DNA from: a virus
IMG/VR virus record: IMGVR_UViG_3300000224_000010
Span: 75-29,175 of that record
DNA length: 29,101 bases
Direction: 5' to 3' (one strand)
Shown: in pieces, positions 3,933 through 29,101 of the stretch
How the letters are laid out: each line of letters opens with the position of its first letter
Numbering within the stretch: position 1 is the first letter of the stretch
Notes under the pieces: model-generated
What the model saw: the letters and a program-made list of their open reading frames with translations, nothing else
What the model was told of the DNA's origin: nothing
Databases searched by the model: none
Made by a program: the position numbers and the translations under genes

Positions 3933-5248
3933 TGGCTAATCAAGATTTAATGCGTATGCTAACTGGTATCAGTAGCGGACAACAACCTGTAATGCAAAAG
4001 CCTGTAGCGGGATCTCCTAACTTTAGAGGGGAGTTTGCCGCACAGCAAAACCAACGTGTAAGTCAAGGCTTAGGTAGAGCTATGCGTGGTGGCGCACCAT
4101 CAGATCAAGAAAAGATGGATATGGCTGAAGCTAAGTTAGACTTAAACACTGTTGAAGGTTTGACCACGTTAGGTAGACTACAACAAATTCGTGGTGATAT
4201 GGCAGGGGCAGCTAAGACGGCCGCCCAAGTTCAAGCTATGAAGAAAGCAGGTAAACAACGAGAACAATTAATTGCACAGGCGACTAAACTTAAGCTTCCC
4301 GAAACAGCCGACATGCTTATTGGTGGGGGTGATATAGCGACAGCGACTAAACAAATTTTAGAGGCCGAAGAACGTGGAATTCTTAGTAGACAAGGTAGAA
4401 AAGGTAAGTTAGCAGTTGCTGAATCTAAAAACGCAGGTAAAGCGGTATATGATGGTATTAAAAAAGGCGATTATGACGACATTTCAGATACTCTATTCTT
4501 AGAGCAAATGAAAGGTGAGAAAGCAGATCTTAAAATTTATCAACAAACTGTTGATGGACGATCAGTTTCTAAACCTTTCCGTGTAAACCCCGCAGGGAAA
4601 GTCTGGGATTCTACTGTTAATAAATGGGTTAACCCTTCTGAAATGGGCTTAAGCCAAGCTCCGCAAATTACTCAAGTTCTTTCGGAAGCAAATAATATTG
4701 CTAAAGCTTTAACAGATGGAGCTACTACAAAGTATTTAGAGCTAAACGAAGCAGCTAACACAGCTTCAGAAATTTTAACACTTAACGCACGATCTACACA
4801 AATTATGAATGAAGGAATTAAAACAGGGTTTGGTGCTGAATTTAGATTGAATACTGCACGTTTAGCAAAAGAACTAGGTTTAGTTCCTCAGTCTATGGAC
4901 GATGTAGCAGCAACTGAAGAGTTTATAGCTATACGTGCAAGACAGCTAATGAAGCTACTTCCTGCTTTTGGTGCGGGTAGTGGTATTTCTGATAGAGACG
5001 TTGACATTGCTAGGGGTATTGCAGGTGGTGATATTAAACTATCAGAAGATGCTCTTAGGCGTATCTTAGCTATGGAAGAAGCTTTAGCTAGAGATTTAAT
5101 AACTAAAAACAATACTTCTCTTGAGAGACTTCAGAACATAACAGGGGAAGAAATGGATTCTAATATATACGAAGGTTTTTATATTACTATGCCACAACGA
5201 GCAGGGTACTCTACTCCACCAAACGCTGCAAAATATCTGCCTCAATAG
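3932..5248 (+). CDS. Putative internal virion protein, helical
   Basis: A 438-residue, mostly helical protein starting MANQDLMRMLTG. The ATG at 3932 is preferred to a GTG at 3899 because a strong GGAGGAAAAGG ribosome binding site lies just upstream and the ATG overlaps the previous stop (TAATG). Residues 55-100 (DLNTVEGLTTLGRLQQIRGD, then AGAAKTAAQVQ) are a heptad-like segment of a type seen in internal-virion-position proteins of marine podoviruses. The C-terminal half contains SGISDRDVDIARGI and a helical region up to the stop. I do not recognise an enzyme domain; the role is inferred from position. Confidence 0.5.
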   Translation: MANQDLMRMLTGISSGQQPVMQKPVAGSPNFRGEFAAQQNQRVSQGLGRAMRGGAPSDQEKMDMAEAKLDLNTVEGLTTLGRLQQIRGDMAGAAKTAAQVQAMKKAGKQREQLIAQATKLKLPETADMLIGGGDIATATKQILEAEERGILSRQGRKGKLAVAESKNAGKAVYDGIKKGDYDDISDTLFLEQMKGEKADLKIYQQTVDGRSVSKPFRVNPAGKVWDSTVNKWVNPSEMGLSQAPQITQVLSEANNIAKALTDGATTKYLELNEAANTASEILTLNARSTQIMNEGIKTGFGAEFRLNTARLAKELGLVPQSMDDVAATEEFIAIRARQLMKLLPAFGAGSGISDRDVDIARGIAGGDIKLSEDALRRILAMEEALARDLITKNNTSLERLQNITGEEMDSNIYEGFYITMPQRAGYSTPPNAAKYLPQ

Positions 5249-12759: not shown

Positions 12760-14487
12760 TTAATGGGTGTCTGCCCAAGTGTTTCCGACTTTGTAATCAC
12801 CCTCAAGTGGGCAGTTGAGTTTGTAGTAGAGTCCTGCGGCTTGCATACAGCTTGTGGCAAGTCTCCCAAAGACATCTGCTTTTCCTGCAATAACTTCCGT
12901 TTGGATTTCATCGTGTATATTTCCTATAAAGTTATAGTCTATACCCCATAGTATAGCATATTCGTCAAGTAAACACAACGCTTTCTTCATTACAATCGCA
13001 CCCGCTGACTGCAACAAAGTGTTTAATGCCGCGTGTGATGATCGTACATAGACCCTTCTTTTATCCAATCCAAGAACATAGCCTCTTCCAGATGCCACTC
13101 CAACTCGTTCTCGTAATCTTCCAAGAGAAGGCGTATTTGCAAGGAACTTTTCCTTAAGTCGTTTACCATCCTTTGCAGTTCCGCCAACGATATTTCCGAT
13201 TTTTGCGTCCCCTGCTCCATATAGGAAAGCGTATATAAAAGTCTTTGCTTGATCTCTAGTTTCAAGGCCCGCAGCCAACTGATTTGCCGTGTGAATATCT
13301 CCGTTGAGTACTTCATTTGTGTATCCCTCGTCATTCATATAGTGTGCTAACATTCTAAGCTCTAGCTGAGATGCGTCCATACCTACCAACTTGTATCCCT
13401 CTGGCACAGTCCACACATCTCTGCACTCTCTGCCGTAAGGTGAATACACTGCCGGAATCTGTCCCATATTCGGACTACTATGGGTCATACGTCCTGTCAC
13501 AGCACCGTTGGAATTAACATAGCCGTGAACCCTGCCGTCATCCTTAACTGCCTCTAGCCAGCTCTGAACCTGAGCTATGCGCTTCTGTAGCATAAGGTAC
13601 TCACCTATCAACGCGGCCTCCGGTATGTCTTTGACTGCTCTAAGCACTGCCTCATCAACAATAGGCTGACCCTTCTCAGTGAACTGCTCAGGCTTCCAAC
13701 CGTAGTACTGTAGGTGTCTGCCTATCTGCTGTCGTGAACCTAGATTAAACACTGGGAAGTCTATGCGGCTAAATGGTGCTATAGCTGTTTCCCATTGCTC
13801 TCCTAGGAACTTGAGTCCGACAACAGAGATCGTACCGTCTTTCTTAATCTTTGGCGTAACCTTCTTGATGAATGTAGGCAACGGTTTGAAAACTTCATGT
13901 ACTTTGTCTTCGAGATCATACTTCTTCTCCTTTAATTCAGCTAATAATAAAAAACACTTCTCTTGGTCTAAGAGCCAACCTGTTTTAATCTGACTTGAAA
14001 TAATACCCTGTACTTGATGCTCGAGATTAATGCACTCAGGCTCAAAACCCTTAAGCTCAGAAAGTAATCTCTTGTACACCAACGTATTAACTTTAACATC
14101 CTGTACACAATACTCCAACATATCATGCGAGAAATTATCCCAATCATTATAATCACCTTTTGGTTGGTTTAGTGTCTGTCCCCAACTCTCTAAAGAATGT
14201 CCACCGTCCCTTGAGGGATTCGCTAGTCTTGATAGGACTAGGGTGTCCGTAATTTTACACTTACTAAAATCAGTACCTAATAATCTCTCCAACACTGGTA
14301 TGTCATAGCCAATTATATTATGGCCTATCACTTCACAGTTATCAAAGCCTAGAAGCCACTCATTGAAGTCAAACAAACTGAAGCCGTGAAACTCAAAGAA
14401 CTCTTCAGTGCCTACAATGTGAGCAACGATACACCACACCTTATCAGGGGTCAGACCGTTAGCCTCTATGTCAAATACTATTTTCAT
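12760..14487 (-). CDS. Family A DNA polymerase with 3'-5' exonuclease (T7-type)
   Basis: Replicative polymerase of 575 residues. Exonuclease motifs: FDIEANG (Asp6, Glu8), HNIIGYD (Asn57, Asp62), YCVQD (Tyr126, Asp130). Polymerase motif A MDASQLELRML (Asp371), motif B RDQAKTFIYAFLYGAG (Arg411, Lys415, Tyr419), motif C IHDEIQ (His525, Asp526, Glu527). The order and wording closely follow T7 gp5, but the protein is about 130 residues shorter and I see no region matching the thioredoxin-binding loop. Tyr419 sits at the position equivalent to Phe762 of E. coli Pol I, as in T7. It begins on the stop codon of the primase-helicase (TAATG). Confidence 0.96.
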   Translation of the reverse strand: MKIVFDIEANGLTPDKVWCIVAHIVGTEEFFEFHGFSLFDFNEWLLGFDNCEVIGHNIIGYDIPVLERLLGTDFSKCKITDTLVLSRLANPSRDGGHSLESWGQTLNQPKGDYNDWDNFSHDMLEYCVQDVKVNTLVYKRLLSELKGFEPECINLEHQVQGIISSQIKTGWLLDQEKCFLLLAELKEKKYDLEDKVHEVFKPLPTFIKKVTPKIKKDGTISVVGLKFLGEQWETAIAPFSRIDFPVFNLGSRQQIGRHLQYYGWKPEQFTEKGQPIVDEAVLRAVKDIPEAALIGEYLMLQKRIAQVQSWLEAVKDDGRVHGYVNSNGAVTGRMTHSSPNMGQIPAVYSPYGRECRDVWTVPEGYKLVGMDASQLELRMLAHYMNDEGYTNEVLNGDIHTANQLAAGLETRDQAKTFIYAFLYGAGDAKIGNIVGGTAKDGKRLKEKFLANTPSLGRLRERVGVASGRGYVLGLDKRRVYVRSSHAALNTLLQSAGAIVMKKALCLLDEYAILWGIDYNFIGNIHDEIQTEVIAGKADVFGRLATSCMQAAGLYYKLNCPLEGDYKVGNTWADTH

Positions 14488-16115
14488 TAAAACTCCGTCT
14501 CATTACCTATAGGACAACTGGTTTCTATCATTCTACCAGACTCCTTATCATAATACAGGTAACAGGCCGGCCCTGTCAAGCCCACGAACCTATTTTTTAA
14601 CACTCTCACACAGGTTGTGTTACGTGTCTCAGGGTCTGCGTGTTGCTGATCTCGCTCTAAACCAATAACTATGTCGCTAAGTTGCGCGATTGCCGCTGAA
14701 CCTCTAAGTTCTCCCAAGCTGATCTTACCGCCATCTTCATGTGCCTTTGAGCCGCTAGGTCTACGCAGGTGTGATACTAAGAATAGTCCTACACCTGTCT
14801 CTTGTACTAGCTTACGCAAATTGGTCATAATGCTGTCGATAGCTTTACGCTCGTCACCATTGTCCTGATCGCTGACCACGATGCTAAGGTGATCCAAGAT
14901 GATCCACTTGCAGTCCAAGCCTTTAGCCATGTAACGTATGCGGCCTAGCAGGTTGTCCTCGCTCGTAGAACCCCAATGGTCAAACATATAGATACGGCCT
15001 GAACCTAAAGTCCTGTCCCAATAACCCTTCTTCTCTTCCTGTGATACCGTCTTGTCGAGGTGAAGCTGCTTGTTGGCCTCTATGGACATAATGCCTAACG
15101 CTGTCTTAGGGATGTCCTCCTCTAACGCTAGGATACCAATGTTGTCCTCAGTCGCGCCTAGCAGATAATGCTCTAGCTCTCTGACTATCTGCGACTTACC
15201 CATGCCCGAGCCGGACGTAATGGTAACTAGCTCCTTAGGTCTAAAGCCGTGAGTATACTCATTAAGACACGCCCACGGATAGTCGATTGACTTCACGTTG
15301 GACTGCTTAATAATCATGTCCCAAGTCTCATTACCTGCCACGATACCATCAGGCTGATAGATCTTAGCGTTCCACCACTCCTTGACAAAATCCTGCACCT
15401 TACGAGCCTTGAGCATGTCCCCTGCATCCTTCATGGGTAGGGTGACGTTCTTAGCCTTATTGGGGGTGAACAAGTCCAGTACTGACCTTGCGGCCTCTTG
15501 TCCTGCCTTGTCATTGTCAAAGCATATAATCACATTGTCGAACGTCTCAAGCCACTCAAGATTAGCCTTAATGTCTTTAGCCGCACTAGCCGCACCCGAC
15601 CTAATGGATACTACAGGCCACTTACCGTCAAACATCTCATTAACTGCCAGAGCGTCTGCCTCTCCTTCTACTACTGTTATGTACTTGCCGCCTGACTTGA
15701 ATGCTTGTTGACCAAAGAGTCCTACATTGTCAAAGGAGCCTGTCGCATAAAATTGTTTGTTCTCTACTATACGTACCTTAGTGCCTGAAGCCACGCCTGT
15801 GTCTTTATCGTGGTAGGGGTAGTGGTGTTTGGTAATTGTCCCATCAGTACCGTACTCAACTGTGACACCATACCGCTTGGCTGTCTCTTGGTTGATCCTA
15901 CGATCAGGGATTGCCGCGATTACACCTGTCATCTCTAATATCCTTGTAGGCTTGTTGTTGCTTGATAATTGACTGATCTGTCCGTTGCCATGTTCATAAT
16001 GACCACAACCACCCGAAAAACAGGTGGCGTGGCCGTCCGAATAACGAGCCAGATTGTCGGATGAACCGCACGATGGGCATGGTTCATGTCTAACAAAGGT
16101 TGACTCGACTGACAT
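14487..16115 (-). CDS. Primase-helicase (T7 gp4-like)
   Basis: A 542-residue fusion that primes and unwinds DNA at the fork. N-terminal zinc-binding segment: Cys13, Cys16, Cys32, Cys37 (CPSC ... CFSGGC). Toprim primase core: VVEGEADAL with Glu150, and CFDNDKAG with Asp200 and Asp202. DnaB/RecA-like helicase: Walker A SGSGMGKS (301-308), Walker B WIILDH (404-409), and VSHLRRP (447-453) followed by LRGS (470-473) near the C-terminal motifs. It ends ETEF; in T7 the acidic tail and final Phe of gp4 contact the polymerase. It starts on the stop codon of the SSB gene (TAATG). Confidence 0.95.
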   Translation of the reverse strand: MSVESTFVRHEPCPSCGSSDNLARYSDGHATCFSGGCGHYEHGNGQISQLSSNNKPTRILEMTGVIAAIPDRRINQETAKRYGVTVEYGTDGTITKHHYPYHDKDTGVASGTKVRIVENKQFYATGSFDNVGLFGQQAFKSGGKYITVVEGEADALAVNEMFDGKWPVVSIRSGAASAAKDIKANLEWLETFDNVIICFDNDKAGQEAARSVLDLFTPNKAKNVTLPMKDAGDMLKARKVQDFVKEWWNAKIYQPDGIVAGNETWDMIIKQSNVKSIDYPWACLNEYTHGFRPKELVTITSGSGMGKSQIVRELEHYLLGATEDNIGILALEEDIPKTALGIMSIEANKQLHLDKTVSQEEKKGYWDRTLGSGRIYMFDHWGSTSEDNLLGRIRYMAKGLDCKWIILDHLSIVVSDQDNGDERKAIDSIMTNLRKLVQETGVGLFLVSHLRRPSGSKAHEDGGKISLGELRGSAAIAQLSDIVIGLERDQQHADPETRNTTCVRVLKNRFVGLTGPACYLYYDKESGRMIETSCPIGNETEF

Positions 16116-16483
16116 TAAAACTCCTCACCATCGTCTTGTTCTGCTACTTCTAGCACCTTGATCTTGTTAAGGTAGGTGCTAGTGCCGTGTACTGGATGTG
16201 GTGCGCCTGACTCAGCCCATAAGAGCCGTACCTTAGAACCTCGACCAATCCGACCTGTAAAGGGCATACCTTCCTTGTCGTAGATGGGTACATCATATTT
16301 AGTGGCAAACTTCCGCTGTTTGACACCCTCATACTCTCGCAGCTTAACGCCCATGCCGCTTAAATTATCAGCAGTATCATCATCTAAACTAATGACTACT
16401 GAGTATTTACCTGTGGATTGACCTTGATACATTTCGTGAGTATCTAGGTTCTCAAATGCCAATGTGCCTTCTACTACTGCCAT
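16115..16483 (-). CDS. Single-stranded DNA-binding protein (gp2.5-like)
   Basis: A 122-residue, beta-rich, OB-fold-like protein (EGTLAFENLDTHEMYQGQ ... GKYSVVISLDD ... RGSKVRLLW) with an acidic C-terminal tail EQDDGEEF. The acidic tail ending in Phe is the hallmark of T7 gp2.5, where it binds the polymerase. It is about half the length of T7 gp2.5, so this is a reduced form or a related small SSB family. Position as first gene after the consensus promoter at 16574-16602, directly before primase-helicase and polymerase, supports the role. Good ribosome binding site (GAGGAAG). Confidence 0.8.
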   Translation of the reverse strand: MAVVEGTLAFENLDTHEMYQGQSTGKYSVVISLDDDTADNLSGMGVKLREYEGVKQRKFATKYDVPIYDKEGMPFTGRIGRGSKVRLLWAESGAPHPVHGTSTYLNKIKVLEVAEQDDGEEF

Positions 16484-17173: not shown

Positions 17174-17337
17174 ACGCTTGCCTCCATTAATCCCGCTTTA
17201 GCTTTGAGCGACTCAATAGCCGCGTCTATCTCCCATTTTTGCATAGGCTCATACTCGTATGCATCCGGCAATTCTTGGGCATCGTGTAGGTCGTCACCGT
17301 GTAGCCAATCCCGTGCGTCGTCATTCCAACCACTCAT
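17170..17337 (-). CDS. Small acidic protein, unknown (55 residues)
   Basis: Reads MSGWNDDARDWLHGDDLHD ... and ends LMEASV. It has a very good ribosome binding site (GGAGGTGAC directly upstream) and 4-base overlaps with both neighbours, which is strong evidence that it is translated. Asp/Glu/Trp-rich, with 'DAYEYEPMQKWEIDAAIESLKAKA' as a likely helix. No known family recognised. Confidence 0.75.
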   Translation of the reverse strand: MSGWNDDARDWLHGDDLHDAQELPDAYEYEPMQKWEIDAAIESLKAKAGLMEASV

Positions 17338-17498
17338 AAGTCACCTCCAAGCACTACAACTGCCATTGTATACATTATAAGGGCTATTACAGCCGTTCCA
17401 ACGCTTAAGAGTGCCCAACCTACCACATCGACTATAAACGTCTTACGTGCGTCTCTATGGGCTTCTCGCTTGTCCATCAATATTTTTGCTTTGTTCAT
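17334..17498 (-). CDS. Small membrane protein (54 residues)
   Basis: Reads MNKAKILMDKREAHRDARKTF followed by a hydrophobic segment of about 28 residues (VGWALLSVGTAVIALIMY and on to VVVL) and a short GGDL tail. Basic N-terminus and a single membrane span suggest an inner-membrane protein with its N-terminus in the cytoplasm. AGGAG ribosome binding site upstream; start and stop overlap neighbours by 4 bases. Holin or small membrane regulator are both possible. Confidence 0.72.
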   Translation of the reverse strand: MNKAKILMDKREAHRDARKTFIVDVVGWALLSVGTAVIALIMYTMAVVVLGGDL

Positions 17499-17581
17499 TT
17501 TTTATTTCTCCTATCGTGTTTGCCTGATTCCCAGACCGCATATAGTCCGGACGTAATTAATAATATACTCAATACTAGCAT
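17495..17581 (-). CDS. Very small membrane peptide (28 residues)
   Basis: Reads MLVLSILLITSGLYAVWESG and ends HDRRNKK. A hydrophobic N-terminal helix followed by a basic tail. Evidence for translation: an AGGAGGG ribosome binding site 7 bases upstream of the ATG, a 7-base overlap with the upstream gene and a 4-base ATGA overlap with the downstream gene. No family recognised. Confidence 0.65.
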   Translation of the reverse strand: MLVLSILLITSGLYAVWESGKHDRRNKK

Positions 17582-17730
17582 AATTCAACCCTCCTATGAT
17601 TTAAATAGCGGCCAATTCGAATGACCTTGTGTGCTTTGTCTACCGGCATTCCGTAGTATTCCGCGAATCGTTCAACTGTTAAAAAGTTATTGAACCAATC
17701 AAGGTACAATGCTTCTATTTTGTTTTTCAT
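17575..17730 (-). CDS. Small DNA-binding-like or regulatory protein (51 residues)
   Basis: Reads MKNKIEALYLDWFNNFLTVERFAEYYGMPVDKAHKVIRIGR and ends in a short basic tail. The segment 'FLTVERFAEYYGMPVDKAHKVI' has the look of a small helix-turn-helix (…FAEYYG…A..VI). Proteins with this 'DWxNNFLTVExFAEYYG' pattern recur in marine phages. The start overlaps the 80-residue gene by 4 bases. A transcriptional role is plausible but unproven. Confidence 0.72.
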   Translation of the reverse strand: MKNKIEALYLDWFNNFLTVERFAEYYGMPVDKAHKVIRIGRYLNHRRVELC

Positions 17731-17969
17731 GCTGTCACCTCATTAGTTAAGTTATCAATAAAATCTTGTGCTACTGCTTCAACATCAGCCATAACACCTT
17801 TTAACCAGTTATTAACGTGTTTTGTCGTGGTAACACTATACTTGGTGCTAGTCTTAACGTATCGACCGCTTGGAAGCATTGCGGCCACTGGTGTCTCATA
17901 GCTAAATAATACTACTGTACCGTTGATTAATAGTTCCGTTTGGTTACTACCTATTTGTTTCAGTTTCAT
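17727..17969 (-). CDS. First gene of early unit; small beta-rich protein
   Basis: An 80-residue protein reading MKLKQIGSNQTELLINGTVVLFSYETPVAAMLPSGRYVKTS, then TTTKHVNNWL. This 'IGSNQTEL...VLFSYETPVAA' pattern is widespread in small phage proteins of unknown function (possibly what is catalogued as DUF8033; I cannot check). It is the promoter-proximal gene of the minus-strand early unit, with AGGAG and a 50-base leader behind a sigma-70-type promoter, so it should be made first in infection. Confidence 0.78.
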   Translation of the reverse strand: MKLKQIGSNQTELLINGTVVLFSYETPVAAMLPSGRYVKTSTKYSVTTTKHVNNWLKGVMADVEAVAQDFIDNLTNEVTA

Positions 17970-18018
17970 CTGGTGTTACTCCTAATTGTTTGTGTTTGTT
18001 TGTTTGCTTGATGGGTTC

Positions 18019-18047
18019 AGTATAGCGCCTAGGCTAACAATGTACAA
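18019..18047 (-). promoter_or_regulatory. Early promoter for the minus-strand unit
   Basis: On the minus strand: TTGTAC (18047-18042), 17-base spacer, TATACT (18024-18019). The -10 box matches 5 of 6 consensus bases, the -35 only 3 of 6. The spacer contains an 8-base palindrome GCCTAGGC (18027-18034), which may be an operator. It lies about 50 bases ahead of the first early gene. Confidence 0.65.
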
Positions 18048-18186
18048 TGATTTAAACGCATGACCTATATAAACTATATGCATCTAGTGCATGACTATAT
18101 GCTACCTTCTAACACACGCGTGCGCGTAGCAATAACCATGCCAACTATTGTAGGGTTGTGTCATGCAAGAGTCATGCCAATGTTTA

Positions 18187-18206
18187 CTAGTGTGTGCTAG
18201 TGTGTG
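18187..18206 (+). repeat. Tandem repeat CTAGTGTGTG x2
   Basis: Two directly adjacent copies of the 10-mer CTAGTGTGTG, followed by CT, immediately left of the DnaA-box-like cluster. Confidence 0.85.
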
Positions 18207-18218
18207 CTATAGGTATCC

Positions 18219-18325
18219 TTATGCACACTCACACTTGCCTGTGGATAACTTATGTATAACTTATGCACACCTTATGCACAGGCCCTGTATAACTCATGTA
18301 TAACTTATGTATAACCTGTGGATAA
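18219..18325. other. Putative replication origin: DnaA-box cluster
   Basis: Two perfect DnaA R-boxes (TTATCCACA, read on the minus strand) at 18240-18248 and 18317-18325 bracket the cluster. Three one-mismatch boxes TTATGCACA lie on the plus strand at 18219-18227, 18261-18269 and 18272-18280. Four TGTATAAC units lie at 18253, 18286, 18297 and 18308. A related TTATGCATA is at 18420-18428. An AT-rich stretch follows to the right (about 18500-18700), a possible unwinding region. Boxes of this density are the known signature of bacterial-type origins bound by host DnaA; function here is inferred. Confidence 0.65.
18286..18325 (+). repeat. Iterons spaced 11 bp
   Basis: TGTATAAC begins at 18286, 18297 and 18308, an exact 11-base period that keeps all copies on one face of the helix, then TGTGGATAAC begins at 18317. 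A fourth TGTATAAC at 18253 follows the left perfect DnaA box. The units share the ATAACTTA extension with the DnaA boxes. Confidence 0.8.
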
Positions 18326-18404
18326 CTTAGGGGGCGGGGGGCCGCGTGGTTTCTTGTGTGTATCAGCGGTACCCTCCGGTATACAAAATAGTAGGAAATT
18401 AGGA

Positions 18405-18432
18405 TTGACAACTGTATCCTTATGCATACTAT
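18405..18432 (+). promoter_or_regulatory. Candidate distal plus-strand promoter
   Basis: TTGACA (18405-18410), 16-base spacer, TACTAT (18427-18432). Perfect -35 and a 4-of-6 -10. The spacer holds the right-hand GTATCCTTATGCA repeat, so transcription from here could be affected by proteins on the origin cluster. A further TTGACA at 18475-18480 has no fitting -10. Confidence 0.5.
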
Positions 18433-18532
18433 AACCTCTTGTAATACATAAGAAAACACAGGTCGCCCCTAGGGTTGACACAAGCAGCCTAAAGGGACAG
18501 GAGAATAACTTAGATAATAGAGTAAATAATGC

Positions 18533-18561
18533 TTGACTTCTGATTAATAATATGCTATAAT
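18533..18561 (+). promoter_or_regulatory. Strong plus-strand promoter for packaging genes
   Basis: TTGACT (18533-18538), 17-base spacer, TATAAT (18556-18561), with a TGC extended -10. Near-consensus for the host housekeeping sigma factor. A 10-base palindrome TAGTATACTA (18565-18574) covers the expected start point. Nearly the same promoter recurs at 23147-23175. Confidence 0.87.
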
Positions 18562-18596
18562 AACTAGTATACTAAAGAGATAAAGATAACCAAGAG

Positions 18597-18685
18597 CCTT
18601 AAGGGTACTTAAGAAAAACTTTAAGAATTAACTTTAAAGAAATAATTAAAGTAAAAACTAAAGCATACTTAAGTATACTTAAGAT
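18597..18685. promoter_or_regulatory. Array of CTTAAG palindromes in the leader
   Basis: CTTAAG-centred sites are centred at 18600.5 (CCTTAAGG), 18610.5 (TACTTAAGAA), 18670.5 (ATACTTAAGTAT, perfect) and 18680.5 (ATACTTAAGAT). The spacing is 10, 60 and 10 bases, so all lie on the same helical face. A 12-base direct repeat AAGATAACCAAG at 18583-18594 and 18681-18692 flanks the array. The layout suggests a dimeric regulator bound in pairs, possibly with looping. Confidence 0.55.
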
Positions 18686-18701
18686 AACCAAGGGGTATAT
18701 T

Positions 18702-19094
18702 TTGAGTGATGAAAAGCAGCCTATTGTAAAAAAGAAAGGCAGACCAAAGAAGAAAGATGTTGTGTCAAAAACAACAGGCAATAGAAATAAGGTAGGTCGT
18801 CCTAAAGGTGATGCTTCAATCATTAACGACTATAAAGCTAGAATGCTTGCTTCACCTAAAAGTAGGAAAGTATTAGATTCTATATTGTCAGCAGCATTGG
18901 ACGATGACCATAAGAATCAAGCAGCAGCATGGAAGCTTTGTATGGATAGATTACTACCTGTCAGTTACTTTGAGAAGGATAAAGCAACTGGGGGCAAGAG
19001 TGCGATTAATATATCAATTACAGGCGTTGGTGGAGAAACTACTGTTATCTCTGGCAACCAAGAACCCATTGAAGGGGACTACACAGATGTATAA
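18702..19094 (+). CDS. Putative small terminase subunit / DNA-binding protein with AT-hook-like motifs
   Basis: A 130-residue protein. Residues 12-37 contain KGRPKKK and VGRPKGD, two AT-hook-like basic motifs; residues 40-90 are helical (DYKARMLASPKSRKVLDSIL, then KNQAAAWKLCMDRLLPV). First gene of the plus-strand packaging unit, two genes before the large terminase, the usual place for the small terminase that recognises phage DNA. The start is TTG, chosen because AAGGGG lies 6 bases upstream and no in-frame ATG gives a better site. A different DNA-binding role cannot be excluded. Confidence 0.6.
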   Translation: MSDEKQPIVKKKGRPKKKDVVSKTTGNRNKVGRPKGDASIINDYKARMLASPKSRKVLDSILSAALDDDHKNQAAAWKLCMDRLLPVSYFEKDKATGGKSAINISITGVGGETTVISGNQEPIEGDYTDV

Positions 19095-19461
19095 CATCAA
19101 CAAAGATTTAGATTACTTTACTAGAGAAGAGTTTGCTTGTCAGTACACAGGCGAGAATGAAATTAAAGATAGTTTACTTCTAAAGTTAGATATGTTACGC
19201 AACCGCTGTGGGTTCCCTTTTGTCATTACTAGTGGTTATAGATCAGAAGACCACCCCATTGAAAAGAAGAAGGAGAGAGCAGGAACTCATGCCCAAGGTA
19301 TTGCAGCGGACATTAAGGTCAGCGATGGAACACAGCGTTATAAGATTGTTGCAGAAGCTATTAAGATGGGCTTCTCAGGAATTGGAGTTGCTGCTGACTT
19401 TGTGCATGTTGACCTCCGCAGCTTGGACACTAACGAGTCTCCTGTAATGTGGTGCTATTGA
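19087..19461 (+). CDS. M15-type zinc peptidase, endolysin candidate
   Basis: A 124-residue protein of the peptidase M15 (D-Ala-D-Ala carboxypeptidase / L-Ala-D-Glu peptidase) type: SGYRSEDHP (49-57), GTHAQGIAADIKV with His68 and Asp75, and FVHVDLR with His107 and Asp109; His68, Asp75 and His107 are the expected zinc ligands. Such proteins cut peptidoglycan stem peptides and act as phage endolysins. ATG at 19087 is preferred to upstream in-frame starts; it overlaps the preceding gene by 8 bases. No signal peptide. The place between small and large terminase is unusual for a lysis gene. Confidence 0.87.
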   Translation: MYNINKDLDYFTREEFACQYTGENEIKDSLLLKLDMLRNRCGFPFVITSGYRSEDHPIEKKKERAGTHAQGIAADIKVSDGTQRYKIVAEAIKMGFSGIGVAADFVHVDLRSLDTNESPVMWCY

Positions 19462-20715
19462 TTGGCTGATCTAAAGGTTGAACTACTACCTTGGCAGCAA
19501 ACAGTATACGAAGACAAGACACGCTTTAAGGTTATAGCAGCAGGTAGACGTACAGGTAAGTCACGATTGGCTGCTTGGGCTTTGATACTTAACTGTTTGT
19601 CAGCCAAGAAGGGTCAGGTGTTCTACGTAGCTCCTACACAGGGACAGGCTAGGGACATCATGTGGCAGATGCTGCTAGAGTTAGGCAACCCTGTTATCTC
19701 TTCAAGCCATGTCAATAACTTACAGATCAAGTTTATCAATGGCGCACTCCTGACACTTAAAGGAGCAGACAGGCCGGAAACCATGCGTGGTGTCAGCCTT
19801 AAGTTCCTAGTCATGGATGAATATGCAGATATGAAGCCAGAGGTGTGGGAGCAAATCCTACGTCCTGCTCTTGCGGATCAGAAGGGTGATGCAATGTTCA
19901 TTGGTACGCCAATGGGACGCAACCACTTCTATGATTTATACTCATACGCAACCATTAGTAAAGATGATACCTTTGTAGGCTACCATTTTACAAGTTTTGA
20001 TAACCCACTGCTAGACCCTAAAGAGATTAAAGCTGCTGAGAAATCTATGTCAGCCTTTTCCTTCCGACAGGAGTTTATGGCATCCTTTGAGGCTCACGGT
20101 AGTGAACTATTTAAGGAAGATGATGTCAAGTTTAGTGAAGATGAACCTAAAGACGGTGAGTTCTACATTGCAGTTGACTTGGCAGGTTTTGCTGATGTAC
20201 AGAAAGTAACCACTAAAACAAACAGACTAGACCAAACAGCCATATCAGTCGTTAAAGCGGGTGTTGACGGTTGGTGGGTCGCTAATATTATACACGGACG
20301 TTGGGGCGTAGAAGAGACTGCCCGAAGAATCTTTGAAGCGGTTAGAGATTACCAACCAGTAGCCGTAGGTATTGAGAAAGGTGCTTTAAAGAACGCTGTA
20401 CATCCCTATCTAAACGATCAGATGAAGAAAAATCAACGGTTTTTTAGGGTAGAAGAGCTTACTCACGGCAATAAAAAGAAAACAGACAGGATTGTTTGGG
20501 CCTTACAGGGTCGTTTTGAGCATGGTAACATAACATTAAACAAAGGAAAGTGGAATAGTCAGTTTTTAGACGAGTTATTTCAGTTCCCTAATCATTTAGT
20601 CCATGATGACTTGATAGATTCATTAGCGTACATAGATCAACTTGCAAAAGTTTCTTATGCTTATGATTATGAAGAAGAAGACTATGAATTCCTAGACAAA
20701 TACGCAGGGTATTAA
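19462..20715 (+). CDS. Large terminase subunit (packaging ATPase-nuclease)
   Basis: A 417-residue DNA-packaging motor. N-terminal ATPase: Walker A GRRTGKS (28-34), Walker B FLVMDE (115-120) and the GTP coupling segment (148-150). C-terminal RNase H-like nuclease: YIAVDLAG (Asp239), VGIEKG (Glu305), HDDLIDSLAY (Asp382/383). The start is a TTG directly after the TGA of the peptidase gene without a clear ribosome binding site, so expression probably depends on termination-reinitiation. Shorter than T7 gp19 (about 586) but all motifs are present. Confidence 0.95.
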   Translation: MADLKVELLPWQQTVYEDKTRFKVIAAGRRTGKSRLAAWALILNCLSAKKGQVFYVAPTQGQARDIMWQMLLELGNPVISSSHVNNLQIKFINGALLTLKGADRPETMRGVSLKFLVMDEYADMKPEVWEQILRPALADQKGDAMFIGTPMGRNHFYDLYSYATISKDDTFVGYHFTSFDNPLLDPKEIKAAEKSMSAFSFRQEFMASFEAHGSELFKEDDVKFSEDEPKDGEFYIAVDLAGFADVQKVTTKTNRLDQTAISVVKAGVDGWWVANIIHGRWGVEETARRIFEAVRDYQPVAVGIEKGALKNAVHPYLNDQMKKNQRFFRVEELTHGNKKKTDRIVWALQGRFEHGNITLNKGKWNSQFLDELFQFPNHLVHDDLIDSLAYIDQLAKVSYAYDYEEEDYEFLDKYAGY

Positions 20716-20717
20716 CT

Positions 20718-22679
20718 ATGTTAGAAAGTAAAGATAATTTCTCTACAGAGCAAGACCTAGAAGGTTGGATAATTACTAAATGTGATGGTTGGAGAGATCA
20801 CTACGAAGCTAACTACTCACAGAAGTTTGACGAGTACTATCGCCTATGGCGTGGTATTTGGTCTGAGGAAGACAGAACACGCGCTACAGAGCGTTCTAGG
20901 ATTATTACCCCCGCTTTACAGCAAGCAGTCGAATCCTCAGTAGCTGAGTTAGAGGAAGCTACCTTTGGTCGAGGTAAGTGGTTTGATATTAAAGATGACA
21001 TACACGATCAAAACAGCCAAGACATTGAGATGTTACGTAATCACCTTGACGATGACTTTAAAAAGAACAAGATACGTAAAGGTGTAGCAGAGTGTCTTAT
21101 AAATGCCGCTGTGTTTGGCACAGGCATTGCTGAAATTGTGTTGTCCGAAGAAAAAGAAATGGCCCCTGCTACAGAAGCAGTCATGGGTGGTGAGCTACAA
21201 GCCGTAGGTGTGAACATACGTGATCGTACCTGTGTTAAGTTGCGCCCTGTAATGCCCCAAAACTTTCTTATTGATCCTGTAGCTACTGATATTGATTCAG
21301 CTTTAGGATGTGCTATTGATGAGTTTGTGTCATCACACTTAGTAGAGCAGCTACAAGAAAGTGGTGTCTATCGTGATGTTGATGTTCAACTAGCTAGTAC
21401 TGATTTTGACATTGAACCAGATCAAGACTTAACCATGTATAATGAAGACAAAGTACGTCTTACTAAGTACTACGGTTTAGTCCCTCGTCACTTGCTTGAG
21501 AAGGCAATGAAGGATGAAGAATCAGAAGAAGAAGAAGTTGTTGAGTTAGATACAGAAGAAAGCTCTTCTTATTATATAGAAGCGTCTGTTGTTATTGCTA
21601 ACGGTAGTATTCTTCTTAAAGCGACAGAAAACCCCTACATGATGCAAGATAGACCTGTTATAGCATTCCCATGGGATGTCGTTCCTAGCCGTTTCTGGGG
21701 CAGAGGGGTATGTGAGAAAGGGTATAACTCTCAAAAAGCGTTAGACACTGAAATACGAGCTAGAATAGACGCTCTTGCGCTTACCATACACCCTATGATG
21801 GCAATGGATGCCTCACGTATGCCTAGGGGTGCTAAACCCTCTATCCAGCCGGGAAAAACTATACTAACAAACGGTAATCCTTCTGAAATACTACAGCCGT
21901 TTAACTTTGGCAATGTTAATCAGATCACCTTTGCACAGGCACAAGCCCTACAGACGATGGTACAGACATCTACAGGTGCTGTTGATTCCGGTGGTATATC
22001 AGGTGGTGTCAATGGAGAAGCAACAGCCGCAGGGATCTCTATGTCCCTTGGTGCTATTATTAAGAGACACAAGCGTACCTTAATTAACTTCCAAGAGTCT
22101 TTTATACTTCCTTTTGTAACTAAAGCAGCTTGGCGTTATATGCAGTTTGAGCCTGAGATGTATCCGGTAGCTGACTATAAGTTCCACACCTCTAGCTCAC
22201 TAGGTATTATTGCGCGTGAGTACGAAGTTACTCAGCTAGTACAGCTTCTACAAACGATGTCTCCCGACACTCCCATGTATCCTAAGTTGGTTATGTCTAT
22301 TATTGACAACATGAACCTATCTAACCGTGAAGAGCTTATTAGAACACTTGAGCAAGCTAACACTCCTAATCCTGAAGCACAACAAGCTGCTCAACAAGCA
22401 CAAGAAGCTGCACAACAAGCAGAAATGGCGTTTAAGGCTTCTCAGTCTGCTGCCCTTAACGGACAAGCACAAGAATCAACCGCAAGGGCGCAGAAGTTAT
22501 CAGTCGAAGCACAGTCTATACCTCAAGAACTTGAAATTAATAGAATTAAAGCTGTAACGACTAACCTTAGAGCAGGTGACGCTGATGACAAGGAGTTCCA
22601 GAAGCGCATTGAAATGTCCAAACAAATGCTTAAGGAAAGAGAAATAGCTGTTAAAGAAGGAGGTAATAATAATGGCTAG
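20718..22679 (+). CDS. Portal protein (podovirus head-tail connector)
   Basis: A 653-residue protein after the large terminase, forming the dodecameric ring through which DNA passes. Features: acidic N-terminus with YRLWRGIWSEEDR, then RSRIITPALQQAVESSVAELEEATFG (about 56-84), a central WDVVPSRFWGRG segment typical of podovirus portals, and a long Gln/Ala/Glu-rich helical C-terminus (about 540-653) ending NNNG, likely the barrel or crown. An acidic insertion EESEEEEVVELDTEES (about 257-272) is a probable surface loop. It overlaps the next gene by 8 bases. Confidence 0.88.
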   Translation: MLESKDNFSTEQDLEGWIITKCDGWRDHYEANYSQKFDEYYRLWRGIWSEEDRTRATERSRIITPALQQAVESSVAELEEATFGRGKWFDIKDDIHDQNSQDIEMLRNHLDDDFKKNKIRKGVAECLINAAVFGTGIAEIVLSEEKEMAPATEAVMGGELQAVGVNIRDRTCVKLRPVMPQNFLIDPVATDIDSALGCAIDEFVSSHLVEQLQESGVYRDVDVQLASTDFDIEPDQDLTMYNEDKVRLTKYYGLVPRHLLEKAMKDEESEEEEVVELDTEESSSYYIEASVVIANGSILLKATENPYMMQDRPVIAFPWDVVPSRFWGRGVCEKGYNSQKALDTEIRARIDALALTIHPMMAMDASRMPRGAKPSIQPGKTILTNGNPSEILQPFNFGNVNQITFAQAQALQTMVQTSTGAVDSGGISGGVNGEATAAGISMSLGAIIKRHKRTLINFQESFILPFVTKAAWRYMQFEPEMYPVADYKFHTSSSLGIIAREYEVTQLVQLLQTMSPDTPMYPKLVMSIIDNMNLSNREELIRTLEQANTPNPEAQQAAQQAQEAAQQAEMAFKASQSAALNGQAQESTARAQKLSVEAQSIPQELEINRIKAVTTNLRAGDADDKEFQKRIEMSKQMLKEREIAVKEGGNNNG

Positions 22680-28321: not shown

Positions 28322-28765
28322 ATGGCTTTAACAAAAGTAACAACAGGCGTACTTGCGGATAATTCCGTGACCGCTGACCTTATAGCTGACGATGCCGTAG
28401 GAGCAGACCAGTTAGCCGCCAGTGCAGTTGTAACAACTTCTATAGTTGATGATGCAATTACAGCAACCAAGATAGCCTCAGTACCTATTGCAGTTGGCAT
28501 TACGTCTGTCGTAACGTCTAGCTCTTTAACAGCAACTGTCAACACGCACGTTTATGTCAGCGCGGCTACTAAGACTATTACACTTCCTGCATCTCCTGCT
28601 ATTGGGCAGAGAGTCTTAATTACTGTAGGTAACTTTACAGACACAGTAGTAGCTAGGAACGGCAGTAACATAATGAGTAGCGCGACTGACTTTACAATGG
28701 ATGCCGCTTATCTCGCAATTCAATTTATATACACAGACGCAACACAAGGGTGGGTGATGTCATGA
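28322..28765 (+). CDS. Short fibre-like protein
   Basis: A 147-residue protein. Residues 1-50 are repeat-like (VTTGVLADNSVTADLIADDA ... AITATKIA). The C-terminal 65 residues (TITLPASPAIGQRVLITV ... VARNGSNIMSS ... YTDATQGWVM) match the C-terminal module of the long fibre at 25574-27241 (TITLPASPSAGNVV ... VARNGSNINST ... IGWKEL). So it looks like a reduced fibre made of the repeat tract plus the tip module. AGGAG ribosome binding site. Confidence 0.78.
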   Translation: MALTKVTTGVLADNSVTADLIADDAVGADQLAASAVVTTSIVDDAITATKIASVPIAVGITSVVTSSSLTATVNTHVYVSAATKTITLPASPAIGQRVLITVGNFTDTVVARNGSNIMSSATDFTMDAAYLAIQFIYTDATQGWVMS

Positions 28766-29101
28766 GTAATTTTTCAGATTTTATAGGTGGCGGTGGCGGT
28801 GGTGGTGGACTGCCAGTAAACATAGTATTAGGACACTCACAAACATGGGTTCCTCCTGTTGATGGCAACATCTGTATCCACGTTGTAGGCGGCGGCGGCG
28901 GAGGCACTGGCACGTCAAGTAGCGCAATGAGTGGGGGAGGGGCTGGGTATTGTAAAAAGAACTCTCTGGCAGTCACAACTTCTGGTTCATTCACTGTAGT
29001 AGTAGGAGCAGGAGGCGCAGGAAATCGTAGCGCTGCTTCCGCCACAAATGGTGGCAACACAACCGTAGCAGGTACAGGATTAGGCTCTACACTTACAGCC
29101 A
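28762..29101 (+). CDS. Glycine-rich tail protein, N-terminal part (3' end beyond right edge)
   Basis: Starts MSNFSDFIGGGGGGGGLPVN, overlapping the previous stop by 4 bases (ATGA). 113 codons are visible. Glycine runs (GGGGGG, SGGGAGYC) alternate with strands such as ICIHVV and SFTVVVGAGGAGN, the pattern of glycine-rich tail or adhesin domains. The last base starts a codon that is completed by bases 1-2 of the window (ACT, Thr); the frame then continues GARGARGAAG to the stop at 272. The joined protein would be about 203 residues. Confidence 0.78.
   Translation, partial: MSNFSDFIGGGGGGGGLPVNIVLGHSQTWVPPVDGNICIHVVGGGGGGTGTSSSAMSGGGAGYCKKNSLAVTTSGSFTVVVGAGGAGNRSAASATNGGNTTVAGTGLGSTLTA

Follow-up and report, generated by a model that had tools for sequence, protein, structure and literature searches.

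A conserved array of predicted DnaA boxes in phages with T7-type replication genes: a possible host-factor-based replication origin

Five exact matches to the DnaA box were found close together between the replication genes and the packaging genes of a viral DNA stretch of 29101 b (the window), and arrays of such boxes occupy the same place in many of its relatives. Together with neighbouring sequences that resemble host promoters, this suggests that these uncultured T7-like viruses of bacteria, a family without an RNA polymerase of its own, rely on the host for the initiation of DNA replication, and the stretch could well be a host-factor-based replication origin combined with a divergent control region, in which DnaA opens the DNA for the phage replisome. 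Judged from the sequences, the array is a rapidly exchanged cassette, as it is absent from relatives that keep the adjoining core, even where the large terminase subunit (TerL) is identical.

Gene organisation of the window

The window comprises bases 75–29175 of a 29175 b IMG/VR virus record of class 'linear'. This record may be incomplete, as its ends lie in coding sequence resembling that of a tail fibre. At both window ends (1–272 and 28750–29101), this sequence is glycine-rich and would be read through in frame if they were joined, so that a repeat may have caused the break in the assembly. A circular contig was considered, as the last ORF is in frame with the first on joining, but there is no end repeat in the record, and the 74 additional bases outside the window are rich in repeats; circularity is therefore not claimed.

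The block to the left of 17.97 kb consists of leftward genes for a class II ribonucleotide reductase, phage endonuclease I, a Cas4-like exonuclease, a family A DNA polymerase and a gp4-type primase-helicase, and includes a weak gp2.5-like match. To the right of 18.70 kb, rightward genes encode a probable small terminase subunit (terS), TerL, portal, scaffold (assigned from its position) and capsid. Known phages include distant matches to the TerL, capsid and portal. The genes referred to below are:

12760–14487, minus strand: family A DNA polymerase, T7-type (protein family matches)
14487–16115, minus strand: primase-helicase, T7 gp4-type, Toprim and DnaB_C (protein family matches)
16115–16483, minus strand: gp2.5-like ssDNA-binding protein, weak match (E 0.00017)
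17727–17969, minus strand: first gene left of the region, 80 aa, phrog_5643 (function unknown)
18702–19094, plus strand: probable small terminase subunit gene (from position only; no family match)
19462–20715, plus strand: large terminase subunit

The intergenic region between the minus-strand ORF at 17727–17969 and the likely terS ORF (17970–18701; 732 b) had been described in the initial annotation as the only long non-coding region. It is a long gap, but the adjoining stretch (17174–17726) is tiled by small minus-strand ORFs of 51–55 aa, so that only part of this description stands.

No isolate with a TerL near that of the window's family was found. A search of genomes for a host gave two matches (69%), both to metagenome bins and from phyla unrelated to each other, which were set aside as binning noise. 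Six contig ends in relatives (L013, L026, L034, L035, L051 and L056) fall within 24 b of one another, 120–143 b before TerL and inside coding sequence; by analogy, the equivalent position in the window is ~19319–19342.

Replication genes

The family A polymerase and gp4-type primase-helicase confirm the earlier assignment of T7-type fork proteins, and 28 contigs with a box array encode both PolA and the primase-helicase. The accompanying claim that the phage has no RNA polymerase of its own was supported for the family: T7-type RNA polymerase (PF00940) had no match in 23 family records (13 and 10, the window's record included), and the positive control, Synechococcus phage S-RIP1, was found in both searches. 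This absence is strong but not absolute, as there is no completeness estimate for the records. An own single-subunit RNA polymerase, the criterion for the Autographiviridae (the T7 family), was accordingly not seen in them. Phage-encoded DnaA (PF00308, Bac_DnaA) was likewise without a match in 15 family records, and its positive control was found.

The DnaA-box array

Six exact TTATNCACA boxes are present in the whole window, where shuffling predicts 1.5, and five of the six fall within 18219–18325. The largest number in any 107 b span was two, both in 1000 shuffles of the window (reached in four) and in 2000 shuffles of 18001–18700 (reached in one), versus the five observed. Three of the five are on the plus strand, which is the minority strand in the family. 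The elements of the array are:

18219–18227, plus strand: predicted DnaA box TTATGCACA, exact match
18240–18248, minus strand: predicted DnaA box TTATCCACA, exact match
18251–18259, minus strand: weak box TTATACATA, in the 11-bp register
18261–18269, plus strand: predicted DnaA box TTATGCACA, exact match
18272–18280, plus strand: predicted DnaA box TTATGCACA, exact match
18286–18315, minus strand: three TGTATAAC units at 11-bp spacing, one overlapping a weak box TTATACATA at 18306
18317–18325, minus strand: predicted DnaA box TTATCCACA, exact match

Units of the form TG(T/G)ATAAC start at 18242, 18253, 18286, 18297, 18308 and 18319, all in a single 11-bp register, and these six are among only eight in the entire window. 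The array is flanked by repeats of 17 nt that are 94% alike (18213–18229 and 18414–18430). The box cluster, the 11-bp phasing and the flanking repeats had all been pointed out in the initial annotation, and each proved to be real.

Conservation of the array in relatives

Two scans of viral contigs, using the window TerL and primase-helicase as queries, gave 60 usable non-identical contigs, including the window. At least two exact boxes were found in the 800 b before the terS match in 40 of these and none in 17, and box density upstream of terS was 87 times that elsewhere. Of 151 boxes in this set, 132 are on the minus strand and 106 include the preferred C of the general DnaA box. For a third scan, the query was the TerL of L211, a more distant member that had been picked up through its own boxes. 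This yielded 54 usable contigs, of which 19 have two or more boxes and 30 have none, at a density 89 times background and with up to 11 phased boxes per array. Contigs with a short upstream region and identical upstream sequences were dropped from the counts, and L105, which is the same contig as L025, was removed by hand. Conservation in relatives, on which the initial annotation had made its proposal depend, is therefore seen in both sets, with the array at the same place.

A scan with DNA only, for two TGTGGATAA boxes 22 bp apart, returned at least 120 loci. Among the matches listed, 77 loci were new (L170–L246), many with the family terS or TerL beside the array, and others belonged to unrelated phages. 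Pairs of DnaA boxes near replication genes are thus not confined to the family: L172 has a box array at 2715, near a T7-type primase-helicase (L172:53–1402), and L189 has one at 3989, near a lambda P-like helicase loader (L189:3065–3844).

Loci from this pattern scan are included in a set of 132 contigs, the box frequencies of which are therefore biased; this set underlies the figures for sigma-54-type sites, spacing, core, dyad and the distances to the G-cluster and of 27 bp given below. The counts for 60, 54 and 106 contigs derive from the protein scans only. Among the 106, an array is present in 50, a sigma-54-type site in 58, both in 40, the dyad in 31 and an IHF-like site in 36.

The spacing of successive TTATCCACA boxes on the same strand peaks at 22 bp (47 cases) and 11 bp (38 cases), and the last box lies 11–14 b from a G-rich element (the G-cluster) in 41 of 75 contigs having such a box. 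In the window, the box at 18317–18325 is 13 b to the left of the G-cluster, as in most relatives with an array. Ordered, helically phased and mostly co-oriented boxes are thus conserved across relatives, and array boxes are also found next to TerS proteins just 43–44% identical to that of the window.

The conserved core

To the right of the array, two further elements are conserved:

18330–18346, plus strand: G-cluster GGGGGCGGGGGGCCGCG, conserved on the plus strand in the family
18369–18404, plus strand: conserved core GTACCCTCCGGTATACAAAATAGTAGGAAATTAGGA, with the lowest family-average duplex stability beside the array

The core, to the right of the G-cluster, has the consensus GTAcCC..ATACAAAAAAG..AAATTAGGA. 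This is a loose consensus, from an alignment of 70 sequences preselected by a loose motif, and a strict regular expression for it matched 2 of the 132 contigs. The computed duplex stability, averaged over the family, is lowest beside the array between +80 and +100, counted from the G-cluster, so that a low-stability element of the unwinding type adjoins the array. IHF-like sites at +60 to +180 are present in 36 of 106 contigs versus 0.003 expected per contig (~0.3 in total); an exact IHF match is absent from the window. No repeated TAG trio, as in DnaA-trio repeats, was found in the family consensus of the core, and TAGTAG occurs once in the window. Contigs without an array keep the core, and their stability profile is unchanged.

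Promoter-like sequences and an operator-like dyad

Sequences resembling promoters, and a dyad, were found on both sides of the array:

18128–18143, minus strand: sigma-54-type promoter sequence TGGCATGGTTATTGCT, pointing left to the replication genes
18164–18179, minus strand: second sigma-54-type promoter sequence TGGCATGACTCTTGCA, strict pattern match
18213–18228, no strand assigned: imperfect dyad GTATCC-TTAT-GCACAC, in the left copy of the flanking repeat
18405–18432, plus strand: sigma-70-like promoter TTGACA-16-TACTAT
18414–18429, no strand assigned: dyad GTATCC-TTAT-GCATAC, operator-like
18533–18561, plus strand: sigma-70-like promoter TTGACT-17-TATAAT, before terS; similar pattern in 117 of 132 relatives

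The window has three strict sigma-54-type matches (the third at 21116), for a shuffle mean of 0.03. Across the 132 contigs, the 1300 b preceding terS contain 163 occurrences of the pattern TGGCAYRN4TTGCW, compared with nine elsewhere, a 115-fold enrichment, and 146 of the 163 are on the minus strand, directed toward the replication genes. When the spacing of the half-sites was varied from 2 to 12, only 6, which is that of −24/−12 elements, was enriched (164 versus 3 or fewer). By pattern and spacing, the leftward sites therefore match predicted sigma-54 promoters. As a control, two E. coli K-12 regions gave a single match each, shortly before pspA and glnA, two known sigma-54 genes, when one mismatch was allowed; with none allowed, neither region had a match.

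In 20 of 40 cases counted, precisely 27 bp separate the start of the first predicted DnaA box from that of the sigma-54-type site, an offset seen with 11 distinct sequences, including the distant relatives L183 and L200. The corresponding distance in the window exceeds 27 bp, and no strict sigma-54 site was seen in 25 of the contigs with an array. Tandem sites are present in array-less relatives (nine in L360, eight in L341), and L317 also has tandem sigma-54-type sequences upstream of terS. The sigma-54 activator domain (PF00158, Sigma54_activat) had no match in 15 family records, though its positive control was found, therefore any activator would have to be that of the host. A literature search that covered few subscription journals found no report of phage genes read from sigma-54 promoters, and such promoters would for this reason be a second surprise. 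The dyad, as GTATNC-N4-GNATAC, occurs 43 times in the region and once elsewhere, and is enriched at spacing 4 only.

Turnover of the array

The core is present and the array absent in roughly half of the relatives. L212, with 10 boxes, and L325, with none, have identical TerL, and L025 (no boxes) and L111 (three boxes) are neighbours at near-zero length in the primase-helicase tree, hence the array is dispensable for both the core and the replisome. In a TerL tree of 111 contigs, 105 of which were scored, a minimum of 24 changes in the state of the array is required. Linkage to one type of replisome found no support in 30 contigs, for which the minimum is nine changes on the primase-helicase tree and seven on the TerL tree. 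In L340 and L297, other repeats (CCTAAGTCTAACTGTTG and TAACTCAAGT) stand in the array position to the left of the G-cluster and are possible sites of other initiators or regulators, and some array-less relatives have no clear repeat there.

GC skew

A change in GC skew had been proposed in the initial annotation as a check on the origin. The minimum of the cumulative skew is indeed at 18.3 kb. However, this is also where gene orientation switches, and with little skew at third codon positions (0.09 and 0.04), the skew is not independent evidence. The minimum lies at the array in G001 but also near the divergence in G016, which has no array; the skew thus does not discriminate and was rejected as evidence for an origin.

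A possible DnaA-opened origin

The array, the low-stability core, the IHF-like site, the divergent promoters and the T7-type primase-helicase together fit an origin opened by DnaA, a reading that we favour with moderate confidence. From this arrangement we infer binding of DnaA and IHF, melting, helicase entry, the start of replication and promoter use. Host DnaA would bind the mostly one-way, 11-bp-phased boxes and oligomerise, and the resulting complex, with the G-cluster on one flank, would open the AT-rich core in the interval between roughly +80 and +100 relative to the G-cluster, with IHF bending the complex in many relatives. The gp4-type primase-helicase of the phage would then enter at the opened core. 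T7 gp4 loads onto single strands without a loader. The PolA-type phage polymerase would extend primers in both directions, while the leftward replication genes would be read from the sigma-54-type promoters beside the array and the rightward packaging and capsid genes from the sigma-70-type promoter before terS.

The original proposal, a host-DnaA origin driving a T7-type replisome, thus gains from the conservation of the array, the missing RNA polymerase and the T7-type fork, but is weakened by the relatives that keep the core without the array. Most boxes in the family also point away from the AT-rich core, while R1 in E. coli oriC faces the unwinding element; this polarity speaks against a simple copy of oriC. 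In Thermotoga maritima, box direction can be tolerated and polarity differs among origins, according to the available part of the source (PMC10316083). More tentatively, the region may be a single exchangeable cassette of host parts, with an origin opened by host DnaA for the phage-coded T7-type replisome and with replication genes read by host sigma-54 polymerase. A single nucleoprotein complex, built on the 27-bp offset, would then couple early transcription to the start of replication, and close relatives would swap the cassette for other repeat arrays round the same core.

Alternative explanations

A regulatory role is a serious rival, as many relatives have the core with no array and the sigma-54-type sequences abut the array. 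The array would then be a transcription switch, in which DnaA bound beside a sigma-54-type promoter activates early leftward transcription, shuts it off or sets its timing, while the core and the sigma-70-type promoter serve the rightward genes and replication starts elsewhere or from transcripts made here. The fixed 27-bp offset of the nearest box in half of the cases and the fast turnover, which suits a regulator more than an essential origin, make this the main rival, and the position between divergent gene blocks, the enrichment of sigma-54-type sites at the right spacing only and that of the dyad at a single spacing agree with it. However, arrays of up to 11 phased boxes exceed the usual need of a promoter switch, 25 of the array contigs lack a strict sigma-54 site, and the box nearest the G-cluster keeps a near-fixed distance from the core and not from the promoter alone, so that a switch of this kind is considered somewhat improbable. 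That the array is a decoy, soaking up host DnaA so that host initiation stops and nucleotides are freed for the phage, appears unlikely. The many boxes of some members would suit it, as would presence and absence between near-identical relatives, which is expected of a dispensable anti-host trait, but a decoy would need neither a fixed place, one-way orientation and 11/22-bp phasing nor fixed distances to promoter or G-cluster, all of which are seen.

The core may instead concern packaging. In lambda cos, a G-rich site, a motif, an IHF site and the terS gene follow in a similar order, and here the G-cluster, GTACCC...ATACAAAAAAG...AAATTAGGA and the IHF-like site lie just upstream of terS and persist where the array does not, as would be expected if they were the terminase packaging start (cos/pac) and the array were unrelated. 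Yet 137 left contig ends show no sharp peak at the G-cluster and contigs run through it; a packaging end at the G-cluster was rejected for want of such a pile-up, and a packaging role for the core is judged to have little probability. Finally, the repeats could be sites for an unknown phage protein that resemble DnaA boxes by chance, with the iterons of other members suited to variant proteins. The different repeats in the same position in L340 and L297 agree with this, but what is enriched matches the general DnaA box exactly, down to the preferred C, and the same box recurs beside the distant TerS proteins, making a chance resemblance very unlikely.

Comparison with known systems

The DnaA-opened origin proposed here shares with bacterial origins (E. 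coli oriC, Bacillus subtilis, T. maritima) several TTATCCACA boxes at short regular spacing, low-stability DNA adjoining the boxes and, in many relatives, IHF-like sites. It differs in being phage-borne with a T7-type helicase and polymerase, in the lack of conserved DnaA-trio repeats, in a box polarity opposite to that of E. coli R1, with the boxes facing away from the AT-rich DNA, and in the absence of the array from many close relatives.

With the T7 primary origin (Autographiviridae), it has in common a gp4-type primase-helicase and family A polymerase. T7 replication starts from transcripts made by the phage RNA polymerase, whereas the 23 family records revealed no such enzyme. S-RIP1 (29.7 of 44.9 kb covered), HTVC200P and CRP-804, which have the RNA polymerase, carry no such array. 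T7-type replication genes with no RNA polymerase are also a feature of marine and cyanobacterial phages, namely the Cobavirus group, the HMO-2011 type, Pf-WMP3/A-4L and HTVC115P. The Cobavirus group is described as T7-like without RNA polymerase in the available part of PMC6918029. PF00940 had no match in HMO-2011, A-4L, Pf-WMP3 or HTVC115P, and no box array was found in HMO-2011 and HTVC115P (50 kb of each) or in the stretches covered of A-4L and Pf-WMP3. Among named phages, the best listed matches for capsid, portal and terminase share less than 42% identity, and most of them are partial. A literature search gave no answer as to how replication begins in T7-like phages that lack an RNA polymerase. 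The present family offers a specific, testable answer with natural controls, namely relatives with identical terminase that do or do not have the array.

The same search, which took in few subscription journals, found no report of a DnaA-box array in T7-like phages or with a T7-type replisome. The extract available for a Pseudomonas phage reports an origin with DnaA boxes predicted by Ori-Finder (PMC11512268). In the parts available of two further sources, DnaA boxes are described at the origins of mobile replicons, near the primosome site in ColE1 and as a pRA2-type box in a corticoviral prophage (PMC3640518, PMC1950889). As far as those extracts go, these are single boxes used with a Rep protein or the host replisome, unlike the phased array found here beside a phage-coded T7-type replisome. 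If the proposed origin is correct, it would be a minimal way to couple the opening of a bacterial origin to a self-loading helicase, and a T7-type replisome started by DnaA would join two systems that are usually treated separately.
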